NCBI RefSeq assembly: GCF_020700235.1
Contig: NZ_CP085307.1
Span: forward strand, 62,001-126,000
DNA length: 64,000 bases
From: Haladaptatus pallidirubidus
GTDB lineage: Archaea; Halobacteriota; Halobacteria; Halobacteriales; Haladaptataceae
Direction: 5' to 3'
Shown piece after piece: positions 47,139 to 50,830 of the stretch. The position numbers and the translations under genes were made by a program. Under the pieces are notes generated by a model, which was not told the origin of the DNA, did no database searches, and worked only from the letters and a program-made list of their open reading frames with translations. The first letter of the stretch is position 1, and each line of letters opens with the position of its first letter.

Positions 47139-47152
47139 TTGTATAATAATTG
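47139..47152 (+). promoter_or_regulatory. TATA box of the ureohydrolase gene
   Basis: TTTGTATAATAATT ends 2 bases before the palindromic operator at 47154. The start site would fall near 47170, inside the operator, giving a leader of about 60 bases. Confidence 0.5.
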
Positions 47153-47153
47153 G

Positions 47154-47171
47154 GTGGCAATATATTGCCAC
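47154..47171. promoter_or_regulatory. NrpR-type operator candidate 1
   Basis: GTGGCAATATATTGCCAC is a perfect 18-bp palindrome. Its core is TGGCA, six bases, TGCCA. The same core with the same 6-base spacing lies at 49382-49397. Known NrpR operators in methanogens are GGAA-N6-TTCC and GGTA-N6-TACC, so GGCA-N6-TGCC would be a third version of the same architecture. The NrpR-family gene is the next-but-one gene. Confidence 0.65.
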
Positions 47172-47232
47172 GCATGAGCTCGATGCTATCACTCACAAAT
47201 GTAATTGTCAAGAAAACATTAGGTGGCCGCCA

Positions 47233-48243
47233 ATGACTGACTCCGATCCGACACCTGCTGGGGAATTCCGAACCGCTCATCCAGGCGCAGACGTAGAGAT
47301 GGCATACGCAGGAAGCAACACGTTTCTTAAGGGAGAGTCCCGCGACGTCGACGATCTCGATGACGTCGACGTCGGTGTTCTCGGAGTCCCGTACGACGGC
47401 GCGCTCACGAATCGACCAGGGGCCCGCTATGGACCCGAAGCGATTCGTCGGGCAAGCGCCTGGTGGGCGTACCTATCGAATTACAAAGGGGGACTGACGA
47501 ACATGAATACAGGTGCTCAGGTGGACTATTCCGACCTCCACGTCGCCGATTGTGGCGACGTGCCGGTCTTTCCAATGGACTATGAACAAACCGCAGAGAG
47601 CATCCGATCACACGTCGCAACGGTCGCCGAACGGACGTTTCCATTCGTATTGGGAGGCGATCACTACTGTACGTACCCGGCTTTCTGCGGCTTTGCCGAG
47701 GGGTCGGGTGCAGACTCCGTCGGATTAGTTCAGATCGATGCCCACACCGACACCTCCAATGAGAGCGCGACATTCGGAAAACACTATCACGGGTCAAGTA
47801 CGCGTCTCATTGCCGAGTCACAGTACAGTGATTTCGATCACATCAGCCAAATCGGTATTCGCGGCTACGAGAGCCCGAACTTTTTCGAATTCGCCGAGGA
47901 ATCTGGTCTCAACCTCTATACGATGCGTGACGTTCACGACCGTGGCATTACCGATGTGGTCGTTGAGGCCGTTGAAGCTGCGGCAGCAGACACGGACGCG
48001 GTCTATGTGACATTCGATATCGATGGCGTAGATCCGGGTATTGCACCAGGAACCGGAACGCCGGAACCGGATGGGTTGAGCGCGCATCAGGCGTTGCAGG
48101 TGATGGAAATCCTAGGCACGCACGATGCGATCGGCGCTGCTGACGTGATGGAAGTCTCGCCGAAGTACGACCCGACGGAATCAACTCAGACGCTCGGAGC
48201 ATACCTTGCTGTCACGCTCCTCGAACGGCAGTTCGCCGAATAA
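47233..48243 (+). CDS. Ureohydrolase (agmatinase/guanidinobutyrase/arginase family)
   Basis: 336 residues from ATG 47233 (MTDSDPTPAGEFRTAHPGAD). A longer frame exists but would run through the operator. The dimanganese site is complete: VLGGDHYCTYP (His), VQIDAHTDTSN (Asp-His-Asp) and VTFDIDGVDPGIAPGTGTPE (Asp-Asp). It splits a guanidino compound into urea and an amine in the cytoplasm. GRP-type arginine-specific residues are absent, and the pattern fits agmatinase-like enzymes, but the substrate is not certain. An NrpR-type operator overlaps its promoter, so it is probably nitrogen-controlled. Confidence 0.9.
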   Translation: MTDSDPTPAGEFRTAHPGADVEMAYAGSNTFLKGESRDVDDLDDVDVGVLGVPYDGALTNRPGARYGPEAIRRASAWWAYLSNYKGGLTNMNTGAQVDYSDLHVADCGDVPVFPMDYEQTAESIRSHVATVAERTFPFVLGGDHYCTYPAFCGFAEGSGADSVGLVQIDAHTDTSNESATFGKHYHGSSTRLIAESQYSDFDHISQIGIRGYESPNFFEFAEESGLNLYTMRDVHDRGITDVVVEAVEAAAADTDAVYVTFDIDGVDPGIAPGTGTPEPDGLSAHQALQVMEILGTHDAIGAADVMEVSPKYDPTESTQTLGAYLAVTLLERQFAE

Positions 48244-48246
48244 CAC

Positions 48247-49296
48247 TTAGTATTGTTCAGAGGGAAGTGCAGTTGTGACGGATTGAAACGCCGACCGTTC
48301 TTTCAATCCGTGTAACGTTGCCCAGGATTCACCGTAGTGTTCTTCGACAAGGAGGGAGATCGCAAGTTCACCGATCGCTCCATACGTCATGGAGGCAAAG
48401 TCCCACCCTGGTTGGCCGCACGGAAACGGACCCGTCTCTCGCGGCTTTCTAAGATCAATAACCCCGCCGAGTTGTGCTCGACTCGCAGCAGCGATGTCGA
48501 ACGCCTCCTCGTATCGAACCACGGGAAATTCTCGGTTATCTACGACCAATAAGCTGGGAGCATCACCCTCGAGAAGCGGGCTAATCGACGGTCGCCCTGC
48601 CTCGATGAGGAGGTCCGCAACGTCTACGGTTGACCCCTCCCCGCTGATGGCATCGGTGTAGCGGAGAATGGCACCGCCATGCTCACTCGAGACAGTCCCT
48701 TCGTGTGCAAATCGCCCGGGTACCGAATCCGGATCCGGATGGTACTCCACGATTCCGGCAACCTGCAATTGGGTGGAGATCCCTCGTGACAGCAAGACAC
48801 CATCGATAGTGATGCTCGACGGAAAGAATAGTCGAACGAGATCGTTGTGTGTTTCGCTCGGGGCTTCCTCGACCGCGACGGTGACAGGGCCAACGGGCAG
48901 GTCGTCCAAGGCACGTATCCTGTTCAAGGCCGCTTCAACTTTCGAAGCGGGAATATCGATAGCGGAGGTGACGAGTTCACCGGTGTTCTCGAACGGATCG
49001 TATGTGACTTGCCCGGTCAGCACAGCGATGCGTTCTCGAACCTGTTCAAGTCGGCCGCTGACGTGACCGAGTCGCAGTTCGGAGTGACCTTTCTCGGTCA
49101 GATCTCGGCCTCGGCCTGGTACTTTTTCGGTGAATCCGTCCGCATCCAATTCCGAGAGTAGGAGTCGGACGGTTCGTCCCTTAATGGAGTAGCCGCGTTG
49201 GTGGAGAAGATCGACTAGACGGATGCTTCCGATGGGCCCGTGCACCTCGATCAGACGAAGCAAATCGTACTTTCGATCATCGAGACAGTCGGACAT
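48247..49296 (-). CDS. NrpR-family nitrogen regulator (HTH + one NrpR domain)
   Basis: 349 residues. Residues 10-75 are the NrpR winged helix (KYDLLRLIEVHGPIGSIRLV, then V-R-L-L-L-S-E-L-D-A-D-G-F). From about 110 on follows a single DUF128/NrpR sensor domain: ITIDGVLLSRGISTQLQVAG, then DVADLLIEAGRPSISPLLEG and LLVVDNREFPVVRYEEAFD. Methanogen NrpR senses 2-oxoglutarate and represses nitrogen genes. Some have two sensor domains or split subunits; here there is one sensor and the DNA-binding part. The gene is convergent with the ureohydrolase (stops 3 bases apart) and divergent from the symporter. Both flanking genes carry matching operators. Confidence 0.88.
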   Translation of the reverse strand: MSDCLDDRKYDLLRLIEVHGPIGSIRLVDLLHQRGYSIKGRTVRLLLSELDADGFTEKVPGRGRDLTEKGHSELRLGHVSGRLEQVRERIAVLTGQVTYDPFENTGELVTSAIDIPASKVEAALNRIRALDDLPVGPVTVAVEEAPSETHNDLVRLFFPSSITIDGVLLSRGISTQLQVAGIVEYHPDPDSVPGRFAHEGTVSSEHGGAILRYTDAISGEGSTVDVADLLIEAGRPSISPLLEGDAPSLLVVDNREFPVVRYEEAFDIAAASRAQLGGVIDLRKPRETGPFPCGQPGWDFASMTYGAIGELAISLLVEEHYGESWATLHGLKERSAFQSVTTALPSEQY

Positions 49297-49366
49297 ATTG
49301 TCACAGTGGTGTGATACCCGATAAACGTACGCATTATTTCATTGGATGGGATCGCTAACAGCAACC

Positions 49367-49379
49367 TATTAATATTAAA
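49367..49379 (+). promoter_or_regulatory. TATA box of the second symporter gene
   Basis: TATTAATATTAAA ends 2 bases before the operator at 49382 and about 18 bases before the ATG, suggesting a leaderless transcript. Confidence 0.55.
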
Positions 49380-49381
49380 GG

Positions 49382-49397
49382 TGGCAAGGTGATGCCA
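49382..49397. promoter_or_regulatory. NrpR-type operator candidate 2
   Basis: TGGCA, AGGTGA, TGCCA: the same half-sites and 6-base spacing as at 47155-47170, again placed right after a TATA box. The last base is the A of the symporter ATG. Being in the region between divergent nrpR and symporter genes, it could also serve autoregulation. Confidence 0.6.
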
Positions 49398-50830
49398 TGG
49401 TTGTGTCACTCATAGACACCGGGCTGCTCATTCTGTATATGCTGGGTATGATTGGTATCGGCTACTGGGGATACCAAAATTCGGAAACGCTAGACGATTA
49501 TCTCGTCGCTGGTCGCAACATCCCACTGTGGATGTACGTTCCAGTCATGTCCGCCGTCATTCTCGGAGGGGCATCTACTGTCGGTGGTGGAGGCCTTGGG
49601 TACCTCCACGGAATTTCGGGCGCTTGGTTGGTCATCTCGCTCGGTATCGGAACGATTGCACTTGGACTTCTCATTTCGACAAACCTCTCCAATCTCAAAG
49701 CCTACTCACTCGGTGAGGTGCTCGAACGGCGGTTCGATAAGTACTCCGGCACGATCGGTGCCATCATTGCCGGCATTTATGCACTCACCATCGCGATCAC
49801 GCAGACGATTGCCGTTGGGAAGGTTCTCAGCGTTCTCTTTGGCGTTAACCAGAGTACGATGATTCTGCTTGCAGGGATTATTATTATCGCCTATACGGCG
49901 CTCGGTGGAATGCTCACGGTAACGATGACTGACTTCGTCCAGTGGTGCATTATGACCATTGGGATCTTCTGTATCGCTCTTCCGCTTGGTCTTAACTCGG
50001 TCGGAGGTATCTCCGGGCTCATGACTGAGCTTGAGCCGTCGTATTTCAGCGTCACGTCGATCGGGTTGGACACTGTCGCTAGCTACTTTCTGTTGTATGT
50101 CCTTGGTATCATGATCGGGCAGGATATCTGGCAACGTGTGTTTACCGCAAATAGTGCTGAAACAGCTCGAAAAGGGAGCATTGCTGCTGGAGCGTATGCA
50201 ATTGTCTACGGTATTGCGACCGCGCTTCTTGGAATGATTGCGCTCGTTCTCCTTCCGCCGCTTTCCGATTCTGAACTTGCCTTGCCGCGACTGATACTGG
50301 AAATCGTTCCCGTCGGTTTCTCGGGGATTATCCTTGCTGGATTCGTTTCGGCGATGATGTCTACGGCGGACTCCGCGTTACTTGCGTCGAGTACCCTGTT
50401 CACGCGCGACGTCTACAAACGGTTTCTCAATTCCGATGCATCGGACGAGACGTATTCGAACGTCTCTCGAATTGTTATCATCGTATTGGGGTCGGTCATG
50501 ACATATGCAGCGATCGAAATCGGGAATGTCGTCCTTGCTCTCACTCTGGCGTACGATTTGCTCACTGGTTGTATCTTCGTCCCGATCTTCGGCGCGTTCT
50601 TCTGGAAACGAGCAACGTGGCAAGGAGCGCTCTCTTCGATCTGTGCAAGCGCAGTCGTGGTCGTCACGACAATTTATTTATTCGGTTTCTCCTCGGATTT
50701 ACCCATCATATTCGGCCTCGTATGTAGCGTTGTCATCTTCGTCCCGGTTAGTATCCTGTCGGGCCCACCCGCACAGAAAAAACTCGAACAGTGGGTTCGA
50801 ACGCTTGATCCATCGGTCTCGGCCGAGTGA
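49397..50830 (+). CDS. Sodium:solute symporter (SSS family), NrpR-linked
   Basis: 477 residues, about 13 membrane segments. Landmarks: ETLDDYLVAGRNIPLWMYVP, ILGGASTVGGGGLGYLHGIS in helix 2, AYTALGGMLTVTMTDFVQW mid-protein, and LAGFVSAMMSTADSALLASS late. It imports an unknown small solute with sodium. Position beside an NrpR-type regulator and ureohydrolase, with an operator over its start, suggests a nitrogen-rich substrate such as urea, an amine or a guanidino compound. It is only distantly related to the symporter at 13.1 kb. Confidence 0.92.
   Translation: MVVSLIDTGLLILYMLGMIGIGYWGYQNSETLDDYLVAGRNIPLWMYVPVMSAVILGGASTVGGGGLGYLHGISGAWLVISLGIGTIALGLLISTNLSNLKAYSLGEVLERRFDKYSGTIGAIIAGIYALTIAITQTIAVGKVLSVLFGVNQSTMILLAGIIIIAYTALGGMLTVTMTDFVQWCIMTIGIFCIALPLGLNSVGGISGLMTELEPSYFSVTSIGLDTVASYFLLYVLGIMIGQDIWQRVFTANSAETARKGSIAAGAYAIVYGIATALLGMIALVLLPPLSDSELALPRLILEIVPVGFSGIILAGFVSAMMSTADSALLASSTLFTRDVYKRFLNSDASDETYSNVSRIVIIVLGSVMTYAAIEIGNVVLALTLAYDLLTGCIFVPIFGAFFWKRATWQGALSSICASAVVVVTTIYLFGFSSDLPIIFGLVCSVVIFVPVSILSGPPAQKKLEQWVRTLDPSVSAE

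Follow-up and report, generated by a model that had tools for sequence, protein, structure and literature searches.

The window analysed here, a 64-kb stretch of Haladaptatus pallidirubidus DNA, contains a gene for an NrpR-family regulator, which is flanked by a ureohydrolase gene and a sodium:solute symporter (SSS) gene, both on the opposite strand (Table 1). This is the gene order, and these are the families, that an earlier sequence-only reading of the same DNA had assigned. The closest solved structures to the ureohydrolase are 'probable agmatinase 2', guanidinopropionase, agmatinase and guanidinobutyrase, and the protein falls under every NCBIfam equivalog cut-off, narrowly for agmatinase (TIGR01230, 174.0 bits vs a cut-off of 174.3) and well below for the others. 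The most likely translation start is 47233, downstream of the first in-frame ATG (47104), which places the first of the two palindromes described below in the 5' region, outside the coding sequence. The distance from TATA box to ATG suggests that the SSS symporter is probably leaderless. The nrpR locus of other Haladaptatus is found on secondary replicons (chromosome 2 and plasmid unnamed2, in the records L007 and L008) and is missing from two genomes of this genus, which suggests that the locus is accessory and mobile.

Table 1. Features of the nrpR locus, in window coordinates.
Feature	Position	Strand	Basis or remark
TATA-like box TATAATAA, ureohydrolase promoter	47142..47149	+	Sequence; just upstream of candidate operator 1
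Candidate operator 1, GTGGCA-ATATAT-TGCCAC	47154..47171		Between TATA box and expected ureohydrolase transcription start; perfect palindrome
Ureohydrolase, arginase/agmatinase superfamily	47233..48243	+	Pfam PF00491, E=1.2e-77; PDB matches
NrpR-family regulator	48247..49296	-	HTH_12 (15-74) and one NRD1_2 (85-287)
TATA-like box TATTAATATTAAA, symporter promoter	49367..49379	+	Sequence; just upstream of candidate operator 2
Candidate operator 2, GTGGCA-AGGTGA-TGCCAT	49381..49398		Overlaps symporter start codon; centre 8 bp before ATG
Sodium:solute symporter (SSS)	49397..50830	+	PF00474, E=8.9e-47

The motif TGGCA-N6-TGCCA occurs twice in the window, as TGGCAATATATTGCCA at 47155-47170 and as TGGCAAGGTGATGCCA at 49382-49397, against 0.02 copies expected, and none of 100 shuffles contained at least two. 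The first copy is enclosed in a perfect 18-bp palindrome, GTGGCAATATATTGCCAC (47154-47171), which is the sole member of its 18-mer class (GTGGCA-N6-TGCCAC) in the genome; both sites lie at exactly the coordinates given in the sequence-only reading and, as it had also claimed, the first is part of a perfect 18-bp palindrome and each lies shortly after a TATA box. At the ureohydrolase promoter the distance between box and site is the same in L006, L008 and L011. When a matrix was built from other genomes only, leaving out both the window and its nearest relative, it scored the two sites at 25.3 and 21.4 bits, respectively, and the next-best position in the window reached just 10.5 bits, in agreement with the earlier remark that the motif was not seen upstream of dppA, the amidase, the nitrite reductase or the M20 gene. 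Across the 6.27-Mb genome the 16-mer TGGCA-N6-TGCCA is not enriched, with 7 copies per strand vs 10 in the reversed control, and four of the seven are two duplicated pairs on contig C1. Because the 16-mer is at background genome-wide, our case is built on position and conservation and not on rarity alone, and the distinctive feature is the presence of two copies either side of one regulator gene, not genome-wide enrichment. On the same contig, identical motif places repeat at a fixed distance of 551,849 bp (as at 1603289 and 2155138), in one case threefold (1326779, 1878628 and 2430477); this regularity, together with a 15% contamination estimate, points to a large segment that is either repeated or redundantly assembled.

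The regulator has a winged helix (PF08461, E=4.6e-12) followed by an NRD domain (PF01995, E=1.8e-15), both above cut-offs, and is the single NRD protein of its genome, with its own HTH. A profile of its orthologues matches the M. jannaschii MJ0159 NRD structure 3nek (E=1.9e-8), and homology to 17 HTH-bearing NrpR proteins from non-haloarchaeal members of the same phylum is full-length, covering both domains (profile E 4e-46 to 7e-30), with the haloarchaeal proteins forming a distinct, fully supported clade in comparison with these 17. Winged-helix residues common to haloarchaeal and methanogen NrpR are R41, L47, L50, D51, T56, K58, G63, R64, T67 and G70, most of which are held by helix 40-52 and wing 56-66 of a predicted structure that has high confidence for the HTH (helices 7-19, 24-33 and 40-52, wing 56-66) and is poor for the NRD. 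Within the NRD, 15 of the 17 methanogen-type proteins have a cysteine where each of the 65 haloarchaeal proteins has serine (S160 in the window protein), and several nearby positions also differ, so that an altered ligand is possible.

Of 394 haloarchaeal genomes sampled, 45 have an nrpR orthologue, and these represent 20 of 86 genera, and eight named loci, partly from the same genomes and including Haladaptatus, Halorussus, Halegenticoccus, Natronococcus and Natronorubrum, were added to the survey. A ureohydrolase (62-98% identical) adjoins or neighbours nrpR in almost every nrpR-positive genome. Conservation of the motif near other haloarchaeal NrpR-family genes, to which the sequence-only reading had tied its proposal, was borne out: in 899 kb from 52 nrpR-positive loci, the relaxed form TGGHA-N6-TDCCA gave 97 sites, distributed over 51 of the loci. 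A background rate of 5-10 per Mb would give ~5-9, so that a few of the 97 are due to chance. The orthologues are related and the loci partly syntenic, so that the counts are not independent. By comparison, 31 ureohydrolase loci without nrpR (L106-L136) yielded two such sites in 393 kb, and the ureohydrolase promoter carried one in none of these 31 nrpR-less haloarchaeal cases. Furthermore, an unbiased scan of the 394 whole genomes (~1.4 Gb) found 30 copies of the strict 18-mer GTGGCA-N6-TGCCAC, eight of which lie beside nrpR (in G000, G073, G144, G205, G266, G310, G324 and G359) where ~0.006 would be expected. The distribution of nrpR on the ureohydrolase tree requires 12 changes, of which just four independent contrasts have strong support. 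This number is too small for significance, but where the motif differs within these contrasts it does so in the expected direction, with a single exception among 200 pairings.

These data bear on two other origins of the palindromes. The background frequency of 16-mers of the same class elsewhere in the genome would fit palindromes that arose by chance or belong to the core promoter, with no dedicated regulator, but the excess within the window, conservation over 20 genera and the absence of the motif from the same ureohydrolase promoter where nrpR is missing leave this reading almost no probability, and we rejected a chance origin on the nrpR-less loci, the near-universal occurrence in nrpR-positive loci and the whole-genome 18-mer scan. 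It is also highly improbable that the palindrome is a real operator of a different transcription factor to which nrpR is just a neighbour: a different HTH-like protein (cluster 31, recognised by eye) does occur in three loci, but no regulator other than NrpR is common to the entire set of loci, the motif follows the presence of nrpR across genomes, and its spacing and GG/CC ends match known NrpR operators. Among the nrpR-less loci, no recognisable substitute regulator was common to more than three, and 16 of the 31 share a conserved neighbour that by eye is aldehyde ferredoxin oxidoreductase-like. From the comparative evidence as a whole, the candidate operator is very probably the site that the adjacent NrpR-family protein binds.

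We counted every palindrome with 4-bp arms and a spacer of 0-14 across the nrpR, ureohydrolase and SSS promoters of 51 loci, with no motif chosen beforehand, and GGCA-N6-TGCC came top, in 28 of the 51 loci against 0.5 expected from shuffles. TGGAC-N7-GTCCA and CGTC-N12-GACG from the same count were discarded because they resembled conserved coding sequence or GC-rich DNA. The originally proposed operator GGCA-N6-TGCC was therefore the top-ranked palindrome but too narrow, as loci such as L045-L050 and L064-L066 show GGAA or GGTA within a GTGG-N10-CCAC frame and thus exclude the exact form as the entire motif; the predicted operator in haloarchaea, in its general form, is GTGGHA-N6-TDCCAC. Variants include GTGGAA-N6-TGCCAC (L045-L047), GTGGTA-N6-TGCCAC (L048), GTGGAA-N6-TTCCAC (L050), GTGGAA-N6-TACCAC (L064) and TGGTA-N6-TACCA (L078-L080 and L088). 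The L050 site has the M. maripaludis form GGAA-N6-TTCC, and those of L078-L080 and L088 have the form of the M. mazei NrpR operator, GGTA-N6-TACC (PMC3177094), so that by variation of the third half-site base (C>A>T) forms equal to methanogen operators arise within one family. The 6-base spacing that had been noted as shared with methanogen operators is part of a common GGxA-N6-TxCC layout. In a matrix of 78 unique sites TGG, A, T and CCA are near-invariant, although these fixed letters are partly given by construction as the sites were picked with the pattern; free of this are the third-base frequencies (C 0.62, A 0.24 and T 0.13, the exclusion of G aside), the spacer, whose four inner positions carry <0.1 bit each, and the flanks. 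Near-invariant half-sites around a free spacer resemble an operator, unlike conserved coding DNA or copied sequence.

The location of the sites within promoters is likewise regular. Wherever the distance is given, the palindrome centre lies 8 bp before the ATG of SSS orthologues, while in most Pot-type binding-protein (SBP) genes it is 2 bp before the start, and sites are mostly 10-26 bp upstream of the GABA-aminotransferase-like (gabT-like) gene and ~56 bp upstream of a second SSS type (SSS2). When promoters were aligned on the site, a TATA-like box was seen directly upstream or ~30-38 bp upstream; in either arrangement a protein bound to the site could block initiation. In M. maripaludis the NrpR operator is downstream of the TATA box and just after or near the start (PMC5512572), and the haloarchaeal sites are placed in the same way. 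Some sites lie in divergent intergenic regions 100-230 bp from start codons, and over a third of nrpR-positive genomes have a second nrpR paralogue, both of which would suit activation by NrpR at its sites, or mixed roles, for example with the paralogue in two-nrpR loci. We nevertheless consider this very unlikely, as most assigned sites lie just after a TATA box or on a start codon, which is the position of a repressor, and methanogen NrpR represses (PMC5512572). The two-nrpR loci (L053-L055, L059-L063, L065, L067-L070, L074 and L075) contain paralogues that split into two clades and are mostly placed face to face at a distance of ~6 kb; a Pot-type ABC transporter occupies the interval, and operator-like sites lie near each cluster end.

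Genes that recur around nrpR encode aminotransferases (a class-III enzyme of GABA/acetylornithine type, another of class III and one of class I), an ABC transporter of spermidine/putrescine type, a C-N hydrolase, an aldehyde dehydrogenase, a cyclase and a histone-deacetylase-like protein. This gene set fits the breakdown of guanidino or polyamine compounds, as the presumed substrate, to urea and an amino acid. In methanogens, the core genes of nitrogen assimilation (glnA, together with nif or amt) are under NrpR control, and binding of 2-oxoglutarate weakens the hold of NrpR on DNA. The regulator could accordingly be a global 2-oxoglutarate-responsive nitrogen regulator in haloarchaea too, with the window genes as two members of a wide regulon, which the homology of its NRD to that of the 2-oxoglutarate-sensing methanogen protein and the nature of every target as a plausible nitrogen-source gene would favour. 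However, TGGHA-N6-TDCCA was absent from 95 kb of amt loci and 119 kb of glnA loci in 17 nrpR-positive genomes, which leaves a methanogen-like global nitrogen role unsupported, and we set aside a global nitrogen regulon on this result. Degenerate motif scans of the window's own genome gave counts of 16 and 24 vs 10 and 11 in the reversed control, a weak excess that fell mostly within genes and included no second clear target. In addition, nrpR occurs in a minority of haloarchaeal genomes and nearly always with the local cluster, and its NRD has the cysteine-to-serine and nearby changes, so that overall we judge a global role unlikely. The nitrogen-scavenging regulon of the sequence-only reading is consequently retained in part: the sites mark local ureohydrolase, aminotransferase and SSS/Pot-type transporter genes but are absent at amt and glnA. 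A 16.5-bit site in the same genome, ~60 bp before an ABC solute-binding protein gene (L138, G000:C1:1044571), may be due to chance or represent a distant regulon member.

We consider it highly likely that the NrpR-family protein uses the two palindromes on either side of its gene as operators, and that it would act there as a repressor of the ureohydrolase and the symporter. The best reading of the comparative data is that NrpR is here a local repressor of guanidino/polyamine-type nitrogen catabolism, for which we infer NrpR binding, repression, effector and substrate alike. An NrpR dimer would occupy the two symmetric half-sites, which are separated by about one turn of the helix, and as the sites lie between TATA box and start, or on the start, the bound protein would block transcription initiation of both genes and thereby keep the cell from taking up and hydrolysing a nitrogen compound of guanidino type. 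Release would be caused by a small molecule acting on the NRD domain, which could be 2-oxoglutarate or, at least as likely, the pathway substrate. More tentatively, it is quite possible that a methanogen global repressor became in haloarchaea a local substrate-sensing switch for guanidino catabolism, in which the ancestral spacing of the half-sites was kept, their third base came to vary (GGCA/GGAA/GGTA) and a compound of the pathway replaced 2-oxoglutarate as effector.

The understanding of nitrogen control in haloarchaea is poor, and a transcriptome paper of 2019 described a master NrpR-type regulator as not conserved in non-methanogenic haloarchaea (PMC6801745). The present data point to an NrpR branch in ~1/9 of sampled haloarchaeal species, with a precise predicted operator and defined target promoters, which would reveal the evolution of an operator code during the change of a regulator from global to local. 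The motif also offers a cheap annotation tool that flags promoters of an uncharacterised catabolic cluster of guanidino/polyamine type.

Of the known systems, the catabolism of guanidino acids and agmatine by guanidinobutyrase, guanidinopropionase or agmatinase, with a GABA-type aminotransferase and an aldehyde dehydrogenase, resembles the haloarchaeal loci, in which class-III aminotransferase, aldehyde dehydrogenase, C-N hydrolase, histone-deacetylase-like protein and Pot-type or SSS transporters recur near the ureohydrolase, although the haloarchaeal enzyme is below all equivalog cut-offs, for agmatinase by 0.3 bit. NrpRII of Methanosarcina, an NRD-only partner protein, has the NRD domain in common with the window protein but differs in that the latter is single and has its own HTH, and two-nrpR haloarchaeal loci encode two HTH-bearing paralogues. 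Compared with methanogen NrpR, the haloarchaeal proteins belong to a separate, well-supported clade and have serine in place of the NRD cysteine, their predicted operator is extended to GTGG and is mostly GGCA, and their sites mark a local catabolic cluster, with none at glnA/amt and with no nif genes. Nonetheless, they have the winged helix plus NRD of methanogen NrpR/NrpRI (Methanosarcina mazei and Methanococcus maripaludis) and the single-NRD layout of HTH-bearing NrpR proteins of the same phylum, and, judged on the haloarchaeal side from sequence alone, they share with methanogen NrpR a palindromic GGxA-N6-TxCC site just downstream of the TATA box.
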